From Solirubrobacterales bacterium (GTDB taxonomy: Bacteria; Actinomycetota; Thermoleophilia; Solirubrobacterales; Solirubrobacteraceae): 20,879 nt of DNA. Below the pieces are notes generated by a model. The model had not been told where the DNA came from, did not search any database, and worked only from the letters and a program-made list of their open reading frames with translations. The translations under genes and the position numbers were made by a program. Location: NCBI GenBank assembly GCA_015655225.1, contig JAATFK010000681.1, forward strand, positions 1 through 20,879. The letters run 5' to 3'. This document shows, piece by piece, positions 1,067 through 7,707 of the stretch. Numbering within the stretch: position 1 is the first letter of the stretch; each line of letters opens with the position of its first letter.

Positions 1067-2671
1067 CTACTTCGTCTTCTCGTCGCCCTGCAGCAACGCC
1101 GTCGCGTCGGCGCCGTCGCTGCCGGCGTCGCTCGCGCTGCCCGTCAGCGTCAGCGTCGTCCCGTCTCTGCCGAGGCGCGCGTCGAGCGCGACGATCGTGT
1201 CGGGGAGGATGTCGTCGAGCTTCCACTTCTTCGGCGCGACGATCGCGACCGTCGTGTCGGAGATGCCGAGGTCGTCGGCGGTCAGCGTGATGATCCGCGT
1301 CTTCGCGTCGACCGCTCTGACGGTCCCCTCGAACGGCAGCGGTCTCTTGCTCAGCTTGCCGTCGACGCGCTGGTTCTCGACGATCCGCGCCGGGACGGTC
1401 GTCTTCCCGTGCTTCGTCGCCGCGACCAGCTTCACCGTGACGGTGACGGCATGGCCGAGGACCGGCAGCGTCGGCGCGGGGACGGCCGGCGTCGTGCTGG
1501 TCGTCGTCGTGGTGGGCGCGGCGGCGGCAGCCGCGAGCGGATTCGTCACCGTCGGATCGGGAGCGCCGGCGGGCGTCGTCGGCGTCGTCGTCGGATCCGT
1601 CGGCGTGGTCGTCGGGTCGGTCGGCGTCGTCGGCGTCGTCGGCGTCGTCGGCGTGGTCGTGACCGGCGGCGCTGGGGTGACGGGCGGCGCCGGCGTGACC
1701 GGGGCCGCGGGCGGGACGACCGGCGCCGCCGGCGTCGTCGCGGCGGGCGCCGGCGTCGTGGTCGTCGGCGTCGGCGTCGGGAGCGGCGGCGGGACCCAGC
1801 CCGGCACCCTCACGAGCAGGGAGGCGCCGCGGGCGGAGACGACGTAGGTCCCGGCCTGCGGGTCGACCGCGGTCACGACGCCTCTCAGCACCGCGGCCGT
1901 CAGCGCCTTGCCGGTCGCGCTCGCGTCCGACATCGACCAGGTTCCGTTCGCGAGTCTCGTCGCGGCCGAGTCGATCGGGTCGCCGAGCGATGGCAGGATC
2001 GGCGTGTGGACGGCGAGCAGCGTGCCGTCGTCCTCGGCGAGCGCGAAGCTGTCGGCGGCGGTGTTGACCTGCACGACCGTCCCGACGAGCGTCTTCGTTC
2101 CGGCCGGCGCCTGCGGCACGGTCGCGGGGGTCGTCGTGGTGTCGTCGGAGCCGGAGCCGTCGTCGCTCGTGACCGGCGCGGGCGCGGGCGTGAAGACCGG
2201 CGCGGGCGCCGGCGTGGCGGCCGGCAGCGGCGCGACGGTGTCCGGCACCTGGGCCGAGGGCGCCGCCAGCACCGGCGCGGGCGCCGCGACGGTCGGCGTC
2301 GTGGCGGCCGGCGCGGCGACCGCCGGCGCCGCGTCTGAGACGAGGATCACCTGCCGCTGGGCGGCGTCCGGCGAGCCGACCGCCGCTGGCCCGACCGCGG
2401 CGCCGATCAGCACGCCCATCCCGAGCACGACCGCGGTCAGCACCGCCGCGGAGCGCGGCGGCGGCAGGTGGGTCCCGCCCGCGCCCGCGCCGCCGCCTCC
2501 GGCGCTCGGCAGGGGGTCGCGGCCGGCGAGCGGCGCGGCGCGGTCGGCGAGCGCCGCCAGCCCGGGCGGCTGCGTGCCGGCGCGGCGCGTGCCGCAGACG
2601 AGGCAGTAGCGCTGGTCGCGCTCCAGCGGCGAGCCGCAGACGACGCAGGCGATCCCGTCGCGCCAGCTCAC
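1067..2671 (-). CDS. Zinc-ribbon, single-pass membrane protein with Pro/Thr-rich exported region (unknown function)
   Basis: 534 residues from GTG 2671, whose GTGA overlaps the TGA of the preceding gene by 4 nt; that overlap decides the start. Residues 9-26 form a zinc ribbon, CVVC then CLVC (Cys9, 12, 23, 26), with the core CGSPLERDQRYCLVCG. Residues about 75-98 are one transmembrane helix. The rest is probably outside: Ala/Thr/Pro linkers, a beta-rich stretch starting LVGTVVQVN, a long Thr-Pro low-complexity region (about residues 294-397) made by tandem repeats, and a second beta-rich C-terminal part. The zinc ribbon closely resembles that of the gene at 3080-4033, so the two are probably paralogues. 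It is last in the pst block. The topology (ribbon inside, bulk outside) is inferred; I recognise no named family and assign no function. Confidence 0.85.
   Translation of the reverse strand: MSWRDGIACVVCGSPLERDQRYCLVCGTRRAGTQPPGLAALADRAAPLAGRDPLPSAGGGGAGAGGTHLPPPRSAAVLTAVVLGMGVLIGAAVGPAAVGSPDAAQRQVILVSDAAPAVAAPAATTPTVAAPAPVLAAPSAQVPDTVAPLPAATPAPAPVFTPAPAPVTSDDGSGSDDTTTTPATVPQAPAGTKTLVGTVVQVNTAADSFALAEDDGTLLAVHTPILPSLGDPIDSAATRLANGTWSMSDASATGKALTAAVLRGVVTAVDPQAGTYVVSARGASLLVRVPGWVPPPLPTPTPTTTTPAPAATTPAAPVVPPAAPVTPAPPVTPAPPVTTTPTTPTTPTTPTDPTTTPTDPTTTPTTPAGAPDPTVTNPLAAAAAAPTTTTTSTTPAVPAPTLPVLGHAVTVTVKLVAATKHGKTTVPARIVENQRVDGKLSKRPLPFEGTVRAVDAKTRIITLTADDLGISDTTVAIVAPKKWKLDDILPDTIVALDARLGRDGTTLTLTGSASDAGSDGADATALLQGDEKTK
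1621..1659. repeat. 9-bp tandem repeat coding for Thr-Thr-Pro
   Basis: About four copies of the unit TCGGCGTCG in frame with the minus-strand gene 1067-2671, giving Thr/Pro-rich protein. Looser copies extend on both sides (about 1570-1790). Such a run is prone to slippage and would vary in length in multiples of three residues. Confidence 0.7.
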
Positions 2672-3075
2672 GGCGTGACCGCCTCCGGGCTGATCGGGGT
2701 CTGCGCGATCAGCGGCGAGCCGCACTGCCAGCAGTAGGTCGCGCCGCGCGCGTGGAGTGCGCCGCAGGCCGGGCAGCTGCCGCCGGCGGCCGCCTCGTCG
2801 AGCCGCAGCAGCCGCTCGACCTCGCCCAGCTCGGCGTCGATCTCCTGCAGCCGCGCCGCCTGGCGCACGATCACGTCGAGGCGGAAGTGGTCACGCCGCG
2901 CCATCTCGTAGGCGAGGCCGCCGAGGTCGAACTGGAGCACCGCGAACTCGCGTGCGAGCACGTCGCGTCGCTGCTGCAGGTCGGTTCCGACGGCGGCGCG
3001 CTGCGCCGGCGAGGCGGCGTCGAGCGCCGGGTCGCCGGCGGGCTTCTTCGGGATCAGTCGGTCCAACATGGTCAT
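2668..3075 (-). CDS. Small coiled-coil protein with C-terminal zinc ribbon (unknown function)
   Basis: 135 residues if read from ATG 3075; an in-frame TTG at 3087 and a second ATG at 3069 are alternatives, and no strong ribosome site separates them. Residues about 30-95 are rich in Arg, Glu, Leu and Ala with heptad-like spacing (for example LQEIDAELGEVERLLRLDE) and probably form a coiled coil. Residues 101-118 form a zinc ribbon with CPAC and CWQC (Cys101, 104, 115, 118), followed by a short tail. No signal peptide or membrane segment is visible, so it is likely cytoplasmic. It sits between two zinc-ribbon membrane proteins: its TGA overlaps the next start (GTGA), and its start lies within 4 nt of the previous stop. 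A cytosolic adaptor for those partners is an inference only. Confidence 0.85.
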   Translation of the reverse strand: MTMLDRLIPKKPAGDPALDAASPAQRAAVGTDLQQRRDVLAREFAVLQFDLGGLAYEMARRDHFRLDVIVRQAARLQEIDAELGEVERLLRLDEAAAGGSCPACGALHARGATYCWQCGSPLIAQTPISPEAVTP

Positions 3076-6655: not shown

Positions 6656-7707
6656 CAGCGCGCGCTCCAGCGGGCGAGCGGGCGCTTCGCGGCCCAGCCG
6701 CCGAGCGACAGAAGGATGCTGGAGACCAGCAGCACGGCGGCGAACGCGTAGAGCGTCTGTGCGAACGGCGTGACCGAGAGGCCCTCGGAGTGGTCGACGA
6801 TCGTCGCCGCCAGCGGGCGCACCGGCTCGAACAGGAACGTCAGGCCGTCGAGCGGGTTGGGCGCGAAGCCGCGCGAGCCCGAGACCATCGAGAGCATGAT
6901 CGCCTCGCCCAGCGCGCGGGCGGTCGCGAGCACGGCGGCGGCGACGATCGCGGGGCGCACCGAGCGGACCGAGATCGTCCACATCGCCCGCCAGCGGTTG
7001 ACGCCGAGCGCGGCCGCGCCCTCGGTCCAGCCCTGGGGGACGGAGCGCAGCGCGTCGACGATGATCGAGATCATGATCGGCGTAATCATGATGCTGAGGA
7101 TCACGATCGCGACGATCAATCCGGAGCCGTTCAGCTGGACGACGTAGGCGACCGACTCCTTGCGCCCCTCGCCGATCAGGTGGTTGTTGACGAACGGGAT
7201 GATCACGAGCAGCCCGATCAGGCCGTAGACGACCGAGGGCACGGCGGCCAGCAGGCGGACGACCGGCTCCAGCAGGCGGCGGATCGGGGAGGGCGCGAAC
7301 TCGACGATGAAGACGGCCGCCAGCAGCGCCGTCACGAGCCCGATCACGACGCCCGCGATCGTCGTCAGCGCGGTGCCGTAGAGCAGCGGCCAGGCGTGGA
7401 GCTTGTAGACGTACTCGCTCGGTCTCGACGGGCCGTTGTAGATGTTGTCGAGCTGTCTGTCGACGTCACCGCCGCCGCCGAACCAGGCGAAGCCGTTGTG
7501 CCAGAACGACGGCCACGCCTTCGAGAAGACGAAGACGACCATCAGGCCGATCAGCACGAGCACCGCGCACGCGAGCGCGCCCAGCGTCAGCTCGGCGCGA
7601 CGGTCGGACCAGCTGCCGAGCCCGCTGAGGAGCTTGGCGCGGCGCGGCGGGGGCGCCGGAGCCGCCGGGGGGCGGCGCGGGGCGATGGGAGCGGTTGCTG
7701 GAGGCAT
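6655..7707 (-). CDS. pstC: Phosphate ABC transporter permease PstC
   Basis: 350 residues, somewhat longer than typical PstC because of a Pro/Ala-rich N-terminal extension of about 35 residues before the first helix (about 44-71). Further membrane helices lie at about 113-138, 155-181, 196-220, 250-275 and 318-338. The EAA loop for contact with PstB is TEGAAALGVNRWRAMWTI (about 228-245). ATG 7707 is chosen; an in-frame TTG at 7752 would add 15 Arg-rich residues and is less likely. No strong ribosome site is visible at either. First gene of the minus-strand block; the upstream region carries the TCAC direct repeats in the orientation expected for PhoP/RegX3-type activation of this gene. Confidence 0.94.
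   Translation of the reverse strand: MPPATAPIAPRRPPAAPAPPPRRAKLLSGLGSWSDRRAELTLGALACAVLVLIGLMVVFVFSKAWPSFWHNGFAWFGGGGDVDRQLDNIYNGPSRPSEYVYKLHAWPLLYGTALTTIAGVVIGLVTALLAAVFIVEFAPSPIRRLLEPVVRLLAAVPSVVYGLIGLLVIIPFVNNHLIGEGRKESVAYVVQLNGSGLIVAIVILSIMITPIMISIIVDALRSVPQGWTEGAAALGVNRWRAMWTISVRSVRPAIVAAAVLATARALGEAIMLSMVSGSRGFAPNPLDGLTFLFEPVRPLAATIVDHSEGLSVTPFAQTLYAFAAVLLVSSILLSLGGWAAKRPLARWSAR

Follow-up and report, generated by a model that had tools for sequence, protein, structure and literature searches.

The closest described relatives of the gene block discussed here—seven genes that join the transporter genes pstC, pstA, and pstB to a lipoprotein gene and three genes for zinc-ribbon proteins (g2, g3, and g4) on a contig of a Solirubrobacterales bacterium (JAATFK010000681.1; assembly GCA_015655225.1)—are the PstSCAB–PhoU operons of Escherichia coli and Streptomyces and the extra Pst transporters of slow-growing mycobacteria, which have two to four pst copies (PMC7866108, in excerpt). 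In E. coli, replacement of PstA Arg220 by Gln, as with PstC Arg237 and Glu240, abolishes transport and not signaling (PMC5775613, in excerpt). The PhoP site of Streptomyces coelicolor is GTTCACC-N4-GTTCACC (PMC4832192, in excerpt), and two 11-nucleotide repeat units precede pstS (PMC7866108, in excerpt). Closer to the present organism, pst genes of Solirubrobacter and the acid and alkaline phosphatase activity of Solirubrobacter deserti CPCC 204708 have been described (PMC10722151, in excerpt).

The stretch that we analyzed, which we call the window, is the whole of that contig (20,879 nucleotides; C560 in our numbering) from a draft genome of 3.9 Mb in 729 contigs that is 77% complete. The Solirubrobacterales are common in soils and poorly studied. 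Our literature search, which covered open-licence papers, found no paper that describes zinc-ribbon partners for a Pst operon, in keeping with the original prediction (made from the letters of the window alone) that this was the best candidate for an undescribed system. What are these partners, and what might they do beside a transporter? Loci, mostly those of relatives, bear the prefix L below and contigs of the window's genome the prefix C; the genes that recur together are called the module.

A Conserved Block Behind pst

The seven genes run on the reverse strand from 7707 down to 1067, in the order pstC, pstA, pstB, lipoprotein, g2, g3, and g4 (Table 1). Reading the sequence confirms the tight junctions that had been claimed for them: TGATG between pstC and pstA, a 13-nucleotide overlap of pstA (end 5702) with pstB (start 5714), ATGA between pstB and the lipoprotein gene, TGATG between the latter and g2, and GTGA between g3 and g4, with a gap of 4 nucleotides between g2 and g3 if g3 starts at its ATG at 3075 (an alternative upstream TTG at 3087 would give an overlap). 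This layout exceeds chance because the same genes recur in relatives, often coupled: pstB overlaps the lipoprotein gene at 41 of 65 junctions and g2 overlaps g3 at 53 of 91, counts in which certain genomes are present twice, since two databases were used. The three zinc ribbons were also rightly recognized, for g2, g3, and g4 alike have two CxxC pairs (at C14/C28, C101/C115, and C9/C23, respectively).

Loci of this kind are conserved in the Solirubrobacterales, and the block is one of them. A search of 61 genomes, the window's own and those of relatives, found the lipoprotein in 18, and its profile matched in 13 of 149 genomes of the class. The 27 lipoprotein loci (26 from relatives plus a second copy on C607 of the window's own genome, with some near-copies from genomes in both data sets) have pstB immediately upstream in every case, g2 next in 23, and g3 within two genes in 21; five further lipoprotein loci have pstB adjacent in all five and g2 with g3 in two. 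A g3 search of named genomes gave 116 relatives; among the 80 that we retained, Pst permease or ATPase genes lie within 6 kb in 70. Among the ten without them, seven have less than 3 kb on one side, and the exceptions are L092, L157, and L159, with the module of L157 present slightly further away. Across the 80, g2 is adjacent in 74, the lipoprotein lies within 2.5 kb in 33, and a phosphoesterase homolog lies within 6 kb in 49; such a homolog is also on the fetched stretch in 19 of the 27 lipoprotein loci. The bearers of g3 include Solirubrobacter (the module is at L146 and L147 in S. deserti CPCC 204708 and at L113 in the culturable S. soli), Conexibacter, Patulibacter, Svornostia, Paraconexibacter, and many uncultured Solirubrobacterales. 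Two main layouts are seen. In the first, g2–g3 stands behind PstSCAB–lipoprotein, and the full order is pstS-C-A-B-lipoprotein-g2-g3-wall-side protein; in the second, g2–g3 faces a different PstCAB, accompanied on the other side by a PstS gene that is divergent and, in many cases, by a phosphoesterase gene.

The original prediction was to fall if the partner genes were usually found away from pst, and their close homologs stay with it. That answer has a limit, which is that distant homologs of g2 and g3 do occur elsewhere. Around the weaker g3 homologs (34–66 bits, 12 fetched loci), several of which have a g2-like neighbor, there are no convincing pst genes; at the distant locus L188, g2 is of a SPOR version, and weak PstS- and ATPase-like matches (25 and 93 bits) lie near the distant g3 of L201. 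Phylum-wide, 231 of 396 genomes match g3 at an expectation value (E) of 0.001; among the matches listed, those of at least 50 bits belong to 10 genomes, each a member of the window's class, and the weaker ones mostly cover the ribbon only. Because distant pairs occur away from pst, g2 and g3 seem to predate their association with phosphate and to have been recruited to pst.

Two observations may be recorded here. The second module copy in the window's own genome (L073, on C607) comprises a small PstS, PstC in two pieces, PstA, PstB, and the lipoprotein, after which the contig ends. The loci L088, L098, L101, L103, and L119 are of this Solirubrobacterales kind but come from public genomes that bear the title Bifidobacterium breve or Chlamydiae bacterium, and these titles look mislabeled.

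Table 1. Features of the window, with positions counted from its first letter
Feature	Position	Strand	Evidence or remark
g4: zinc ribbon and membrane helix, with a Pro/Thr-rich stalk and small beta-like repeats	1067..2671	-	
g3: helical hairpin, then C-terminal zinc ribbon	2668..3075	-	Model pLDDT 83.8; DUF7577
g2: Cys4 zinc ribbon at the N terminus, a single membrane helix, a SPOR-like ectodomain, and a conserved tail at the C terminus	3080..4033	-	
Lipoprotein: two beta-sandwich (Ig-like) domains, lipobox IAGC	4033..4794	-	Cys24 invariant 26/26; AlphaFold2 pLDDT 88.4
pstB: ATPase with module-specific N-terminal tail VPPPVRRI	4791..5714	-	TIGR00972 335.9 bits (cut-off 343.2)
pstA: permease, RIAGD in place of RxxGE	5702..6655	-	TIGR00974 199.9 bits (cut-off 193.45)
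pstC: permease	6655..7707	-	NCBIfam TIGR02138 195.0 bits (cut-off 196.45); RxxGE motif retained
PHO-box-like array	7772..7880	-	GTGA units at 7772, 7783, 7794, 7805, 7817, 7828, 7849, 7870
PstS-family protein: 643 residues, C-terminal extension, divergent from pstC	7954..9885	+	Profile–profile match to relatives' canonical PstS; RVGGSGT segment
S1: secreted, C-terminal PKD domain	9963..11951	+	PF00801 E 1.7e-7
S2: secreted PD40 beta-propeller protein	11948..14080	+	PF07676 E 1.5e-16
S3: secreted protein	14077..15789	+	Homolog beside S2 in L059; no Pfam family
S4: large surface protein with YCF48/BNR-like repeats and a membrane helix at the C terminus	15861..20549	-	PF14870 23.0 bits (cut-off 27)
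Second PHO-box-like triple repeat, upstream of S4	20629..20654	-	
FtsH-type protease: last 53 codons, truncated at contig end	20718..20879	-	75% identity over 48 residues to L059 FtsH

A Second Pst Transporter

The PstCAB of the block is a second Pst transporter of this genome, with a PstB clade distinct from the PhoU-linked one. The tree of PstB, for which 66 of 97 distinct rows were used, splits 36 module rows from the 30 rows of the other two types with support of 100/99. The type that faces g2–g3 forms one group (100/92), and the PhoU-linked rows do not; the row of L060 is placed beside the g2–g3-facing group, and the tree program flags long branches that include L196 and L060. The window PstB matches the PstB of 9k3x at E 1e-77, and PstA exceeds its NCBIfam cut-off. 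The module has sequence marks of its own. A tail of the pattern PP(x)[IVR][RK]x[IL] stands at the N terminus of PstB in 44 of 56 module members and in none of 38 others, and the RxxGE motif, kept in 51 of 52 distinct module PstC, reads RxxGD in all 54 distinct module PstA (RxxGE in 32 of 44 nonmodule PstA, with the remaining 12 failing to match the pattern). These tail and motif counts, like the repeat enrichment, the PhoU tally, and the PstS motif counts below, come from deduplicated sets, and gene calls were kept as found (fused PstC+PstA in L056, fused PstA+PstB in L072, and split PstC in L073).

It had been said that neither pstS nor phoU is in the block, and neither is; a PstS-family gene, however, starts at 7954 on the other strand, 247 bp from the start of pstC, and PhoU, although outside the module operon, is present elsewhere, its matches in this 77% complete genome being confined to C389, within an ordinary PstS-C-A-B-PhoU operon. 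No Pfam or NCBIfam model names the secreted 643-residue protein encoded at 7954. Its family aligns with the relatives' canonical PstS (hhalign probability 99.3, E 7e-21, residues 34–478), its relative in L053 exceeds the PBP_like_2 cut-off (36 vs. 27 bits), and its RVGGSGTSYAFKNY segment aligns to the SGT loop of the E. coli PstS in 1qui (E 0.0014). There is also a small PstS (PF12849), found upstream in the same run in 26 of the 27 lipoprotein loci of the relatives and the own second copy. The window's genome has one of the module type on C558, closest to solved phosphate-binding proteins (4gd5, E 9e-23) and beside an FtsH gene truncated by the contig end. Because FtsH fragments lie at both ends and the genome has only one other protease-domain match (C293), C558 probably adjoins the right end of the window, with about 120 codons unseen. 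By these matches, the cognate PstS is not missing: there is a divergent PstS-family gene and a small pstS on a probably adjoining contig.

Between pstC and the PstS-like gene lies an array of repeats whose GTGA reads TCAC along pstC. Six units follow each other at steps of 11–12 bp; two more come at intervals of 21 bp, between which the eye can pick out degenerate copies. This is PHO-box architecture—direct repeats of a TCAC-bearing 7-mer with a 4-bp spacer—and binding of a PhoP/PhoB-type regulator is predicted. The only sigma-70-like promoter in 900–9960 lies inside the array (7838–7865, forward strand), by a consensus that may not fit GC-rich actinobacteria. Three exact units in a row are found at 11 positions of the draft genome and at none in the reversed control. 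These fall into eight clusters (C209 and C646 share the same 26 bases), of which two are in the window, one precedes the small pstS of C558, one on C389 precedes the gene before the canonical pstS, and one on C680 precedes a PF04185 phosphoesterase gene (E 1.7e-74). In the relatives, at least 10 of 12 core bases are reached upstream of 18 of 46 module pstS genes vs. 18 of 601 others (Fisher p 2e-13), the 601 being unlabeled genes of the same loci after deduplication (24/56 vs. 20/620 before it); the opposite strand gives 4/46 and 10/601. Canonical-type pstS genes reach that level in 12 of 31 upstream regions. The exact triple has matches in 22 of 37 genomes searched (two in all in the reversed control), and those of L054, L055, L057, L060, and L072 lie, by eye, between a DUF47 gene and a Trans_reg_C gene before the canonical pst and not before the module. 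Phosphoesterase genes (4/54, p 0.10) and S1 genes (2/11, p 0.05) were considered as extra Pho targets and are unconvincing as such. A PHO-box-like repeat also stands before a 1106-residue, secreted-looking protein (L217 161–3481 and the end of L214).

The Partner Proteins

The lipoprotein has a short signal followed by the invariant C24, from which lipidation is predicted. It matches no Pfam family above cut-off, and its best match among Protein Data Bank sequences has E 0.3. Its fold was tried as a guide to function and proved too general, the matches being single Ig-like domains (glycosidases, transglutaminases, and WxLIP).

The ribbons of g2 and g4 are each N-terminal and followed by one hydrophobic helix, and g3 has no membrane helix; from this order of parts, all three ribbons are predicted to be cytosolic. 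By score, the g3 ribbon exceeds the DUF7577 gathering threshold (29.8 vs. 28 bits), and those of g2 (24.1 vs. 25 bits) and g4 (16.3 vs. 25 bits) fall below theirs in Pfam. The four cysteines in two CxxC are present in g4, and those of g3 are lost in L074 and L078.

The position of g4 is the variable one. A hand tally of the 25 loci that have a same-strand gene within 20 nucleotides behind g3 (the window included, and four places seen twice as L063/L094, L064/L115, L056/L093, and L057/L088) gives a phosphoesterase homolog in 16, a transglycosylase homolog in 5 (L056–L058 and two duplicates), a 118-residue protein in 1, and something else in 3, namely the window g4, L086, which resembles it, and L061, whose likeness is by eye only. 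The idea of a transporter-associated module with ribbons, membrane helices, and wall-facing parts stands in that these are kept beside pst across the relatives, but its fourth member is not fixed. The window g4 has no Pfam family above cut-off, no NCBIfam match, and no PF04185 match. Set against three other slot proteins, it gives 57 bits with L086 (strong composition bias), matches L092 in ribbon and stalk only, and does not match L061. Pfam, applied to three of the slot proteins and to the divergent gene of L062, gives PF04185 for L077 and for that divergent gene, SLT for L056, and no match for L061. Phosphoesterase homologs with a zinc ribbon at their own N terminus stand behind g3 in L063, L067, L091, and L092 and are encoded by the divergent gene in L062 and L068; they share the architecture of the window g4 with a different ectodomain. 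In Patulibacter (L070, 5274–6461, and L162), the gene directly behind g3 encodes a putative Pit-type phosphate transporter.

What Might the Block Do?

We argue, with a probability of roughly 0.6, that the block is a starvation-induced second Pst system with a dedicated scaffold that couples phosphate release on the wall side to uptake. That is, a PhoP/PhoB-type regulator would turn the block on under phosphate scarcity, and extracellular PstS proteins would pass phosphate, the presumed substrate, to PstCAB, with the lipoprotein at the outer membrane face beside the transporter. The g2 protein, and in some members the protein of the g4 slot too, would span the membrane once, with its zinc ribbon in the cytosol and its tail or enzyme facing the wall. 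A cytosolic coiled-coil zinc-ribbon adaptor, g3, would collect these ribbons at the Pst complex, docking perhaps through the extra PPPVRRI tail at the PstB N terminus. The outcome would be that wall-side phosphate release (by a phosphoesterase in many relatives) is co-located with uptake. One might go further and imagine a “catch and import” complex, in which g3 clamps ribbon-bearing wall-side proteins onto a Pst with a docking tail, g2/g3 also replace PhoU, and a single unit cleaves phosphoesters, attaches to the wall, and takes up phosphate; we offer this fuller picture tentatively, at odds well short of even.

Several observations weigh against the starvation-induced scaffold. Homologs of g3 are found apart from pst in other members of the Thermoleophilia and at one place (C60) in this genome. 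The loci were found through the lipoprotein or g3, and the presence counts of those two are biased for that reason (their adjacency to pst is not). The window g4 is neither a phosphoesterase nor a transglycosylase homolog, and 8 of the 27 lipoprotein loci have no phosphoesterase homolog on their stretch. PstB and PstC fall narrowly below their NCBIfam cut-offs (at E 1e-100 and 1e-57). As to control by phosphate, three of the eight exact-triple clusters (C266, C295, and C209/C646) precede genes without a known phosphate link, the array is weak or absent (below 10 of 12) upstream of 28 of 46 module pstS genes, the exact triple precedes only 1 of 56 module pstS genes (that of C558), and phosphoesterase genes are not enriched for the repeat at 10 of 12. 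Finally, the phosphate-loop pattern R...SG[TS]...F, tried as a marker of substrate, does not discriminate, with only 10 of 41 canonical-type PstS matching it.

Could g2/g3 instead be a signaling unit that replaces PhoU, with g3 sensing the state of the transporter through PstB and signaling it to either a kinase or the transporter itself and with the wall parts secondary? We find this doubtful as the whole account. Among 81 distinct PstB genes (three genes inspected on each side), 68 have g2/g3 without PhoU, 7 have PhoU without g2/g3, 6 have the lipoprotein only, and none has both, and two separate PhoU-less PstB groups carry g2/g3; because the loci were gathered through the lipoprotein or g3, however, a class with neither could not have appeared, and only the exclusion of PhoU carries weight in this tally. 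Most of the invariant residues of g3 lie near the tip of its hairpin, in the alignment and in the structure model, as they would for a binding tip. Against this, no PhoU model in Pfam matches g3, its structure model fits only generic coiled coils, and the genome retains an ordinary PhoU. The two roles are not mutually exclusive, and a scaffold of the kind that we prefer could also stand in for PhoU.

A second alternative, which we consider unlikely, is a unit for cell-wall maintenance, co-expressed with uptake as phosphate shortage remodels the wall and with ribbons that do not touch the transporter. The SPOR-like domain of some g2, the transglycosylase homologs in the g4 slot, and the surface-protein neighbors would all suit it. 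The SPOR domain of g2 is optional, however, being matched in only 4 of 22 members at E 0.01 and scoring slightly below the Pfam gathering threshold in the window (PF05036, 20.0 vs. 21 bits), whereas the four ribbon cysteines are invariant in all 22; the tight coupling to pstB is specific.

It is less probable still that the substrate is not inorganic phosphate but another oxyanion or a phosphonate. The invariable RxxGD of module PstA, the separate PhoU-linked Pst, and the scores of PstB and PstC slightly under the equivalog cut-offs lean that way, and the phosphate-loop pattern, present in 33 of 41 distinct small PstS, is lacking in all 10 of a second small-PstS type. The motif arginine of the window PstA, however, aligns with residue 220 of the 9k3s PstA chain (by hand count), so the E. 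coli position is kept, and the nearest solved relatives of the C558 small PstS, the PHO-box-like arrays, and the phosphoesterase neighbors all speak for phosphate. That the block is an ordinary pst operon with unrelated hitch-hiking genes, as the varying fourth gene might suggest, is hardly credible, given that all 27 lipoprotein loci keep the order and that 70 of 80 g3 loci have Pst genes nearby.

Other Genes of the Window

Beyond the PstS-like gene lie the large secreted or surface proteins of Table 1, of which S1 has a homolog on the stretch in 7 of the 27 module loci. Divergent clusters of large secreted proteins and an FtsH-type protease adjoin the module in several relatives (L053, L058, L059, L063, L064, L066, and L067), with the S1 PKD protein, the S2 PD40 propeller, and frequently, the PstS-like protein. 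AGA is the main arginine codon, despite a GC content of 73%, in the genes for the lipoprotein (18/27), g2 (10/17), and the PstS-like protein (9/14), with no AGG in any of the three, and none of the 27 arginine codons of purU is AGA; in called genes, AGA totals 114 in L063 (same genus), 0 in L056, and 1 in L070. The window has no Rfam matches and no tRNA.

Comparison with Known Systems

The module supplies testable partners for a PhoU-less Pst, and its gene coupling ties a phosphoesterase to an importer. It also gives hints of function for families that are mostly named hypothetical protein or zinc ribbon domain-containing protein. If a ribbon adaptor does assemble wall enzymes on the transporter, a role is suggested for other proteins built of a ribbon, a helix, and a wall-facing tail.

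Among known proteins, those of the DksA type consist of a helical hairpin and then a Cys4 zinc finger, and g3 likewise has a hairpin followed by a zinc ribbon. We considered and set aside a DksA-like reading of g3: the Foldseek match to DksA is not significant (E 0.76), and generic hairpins and coiled coils fit equally well (the absence of DksA from the matches listed in a second structure search carries no weight). PF04185 phosphoesterases are linked to the module in that many relatives encode a homolog of them in the g4 slot or in a divergent gene close by; some of these homologs follow a zinc ribbon and a membrane helix, and the window g4 has none. With the extra Pst of mycobacteria, the module shares the character of an additional high-affinity transporter beside a first one, whereas the excerpt of PMC7866108 that describes those copies mentions no such zinc-ribbon, SPOR, or lipoprotein partners. 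The PstSCAB–PhoU operon of E. coli and Streptomyces has in common with the module PstC, PstA, PstB, a PBP_like_2-type PstS, and PHO-box-like direct repeats upstream. The module differs in having no PhoU, in the lipoprotein and zinc-ribbon genes coupled behind pstB, and in the RxxGD of its PstA, the N-terminal tail of its PstB, and the separate clade to which that PstB belongs.

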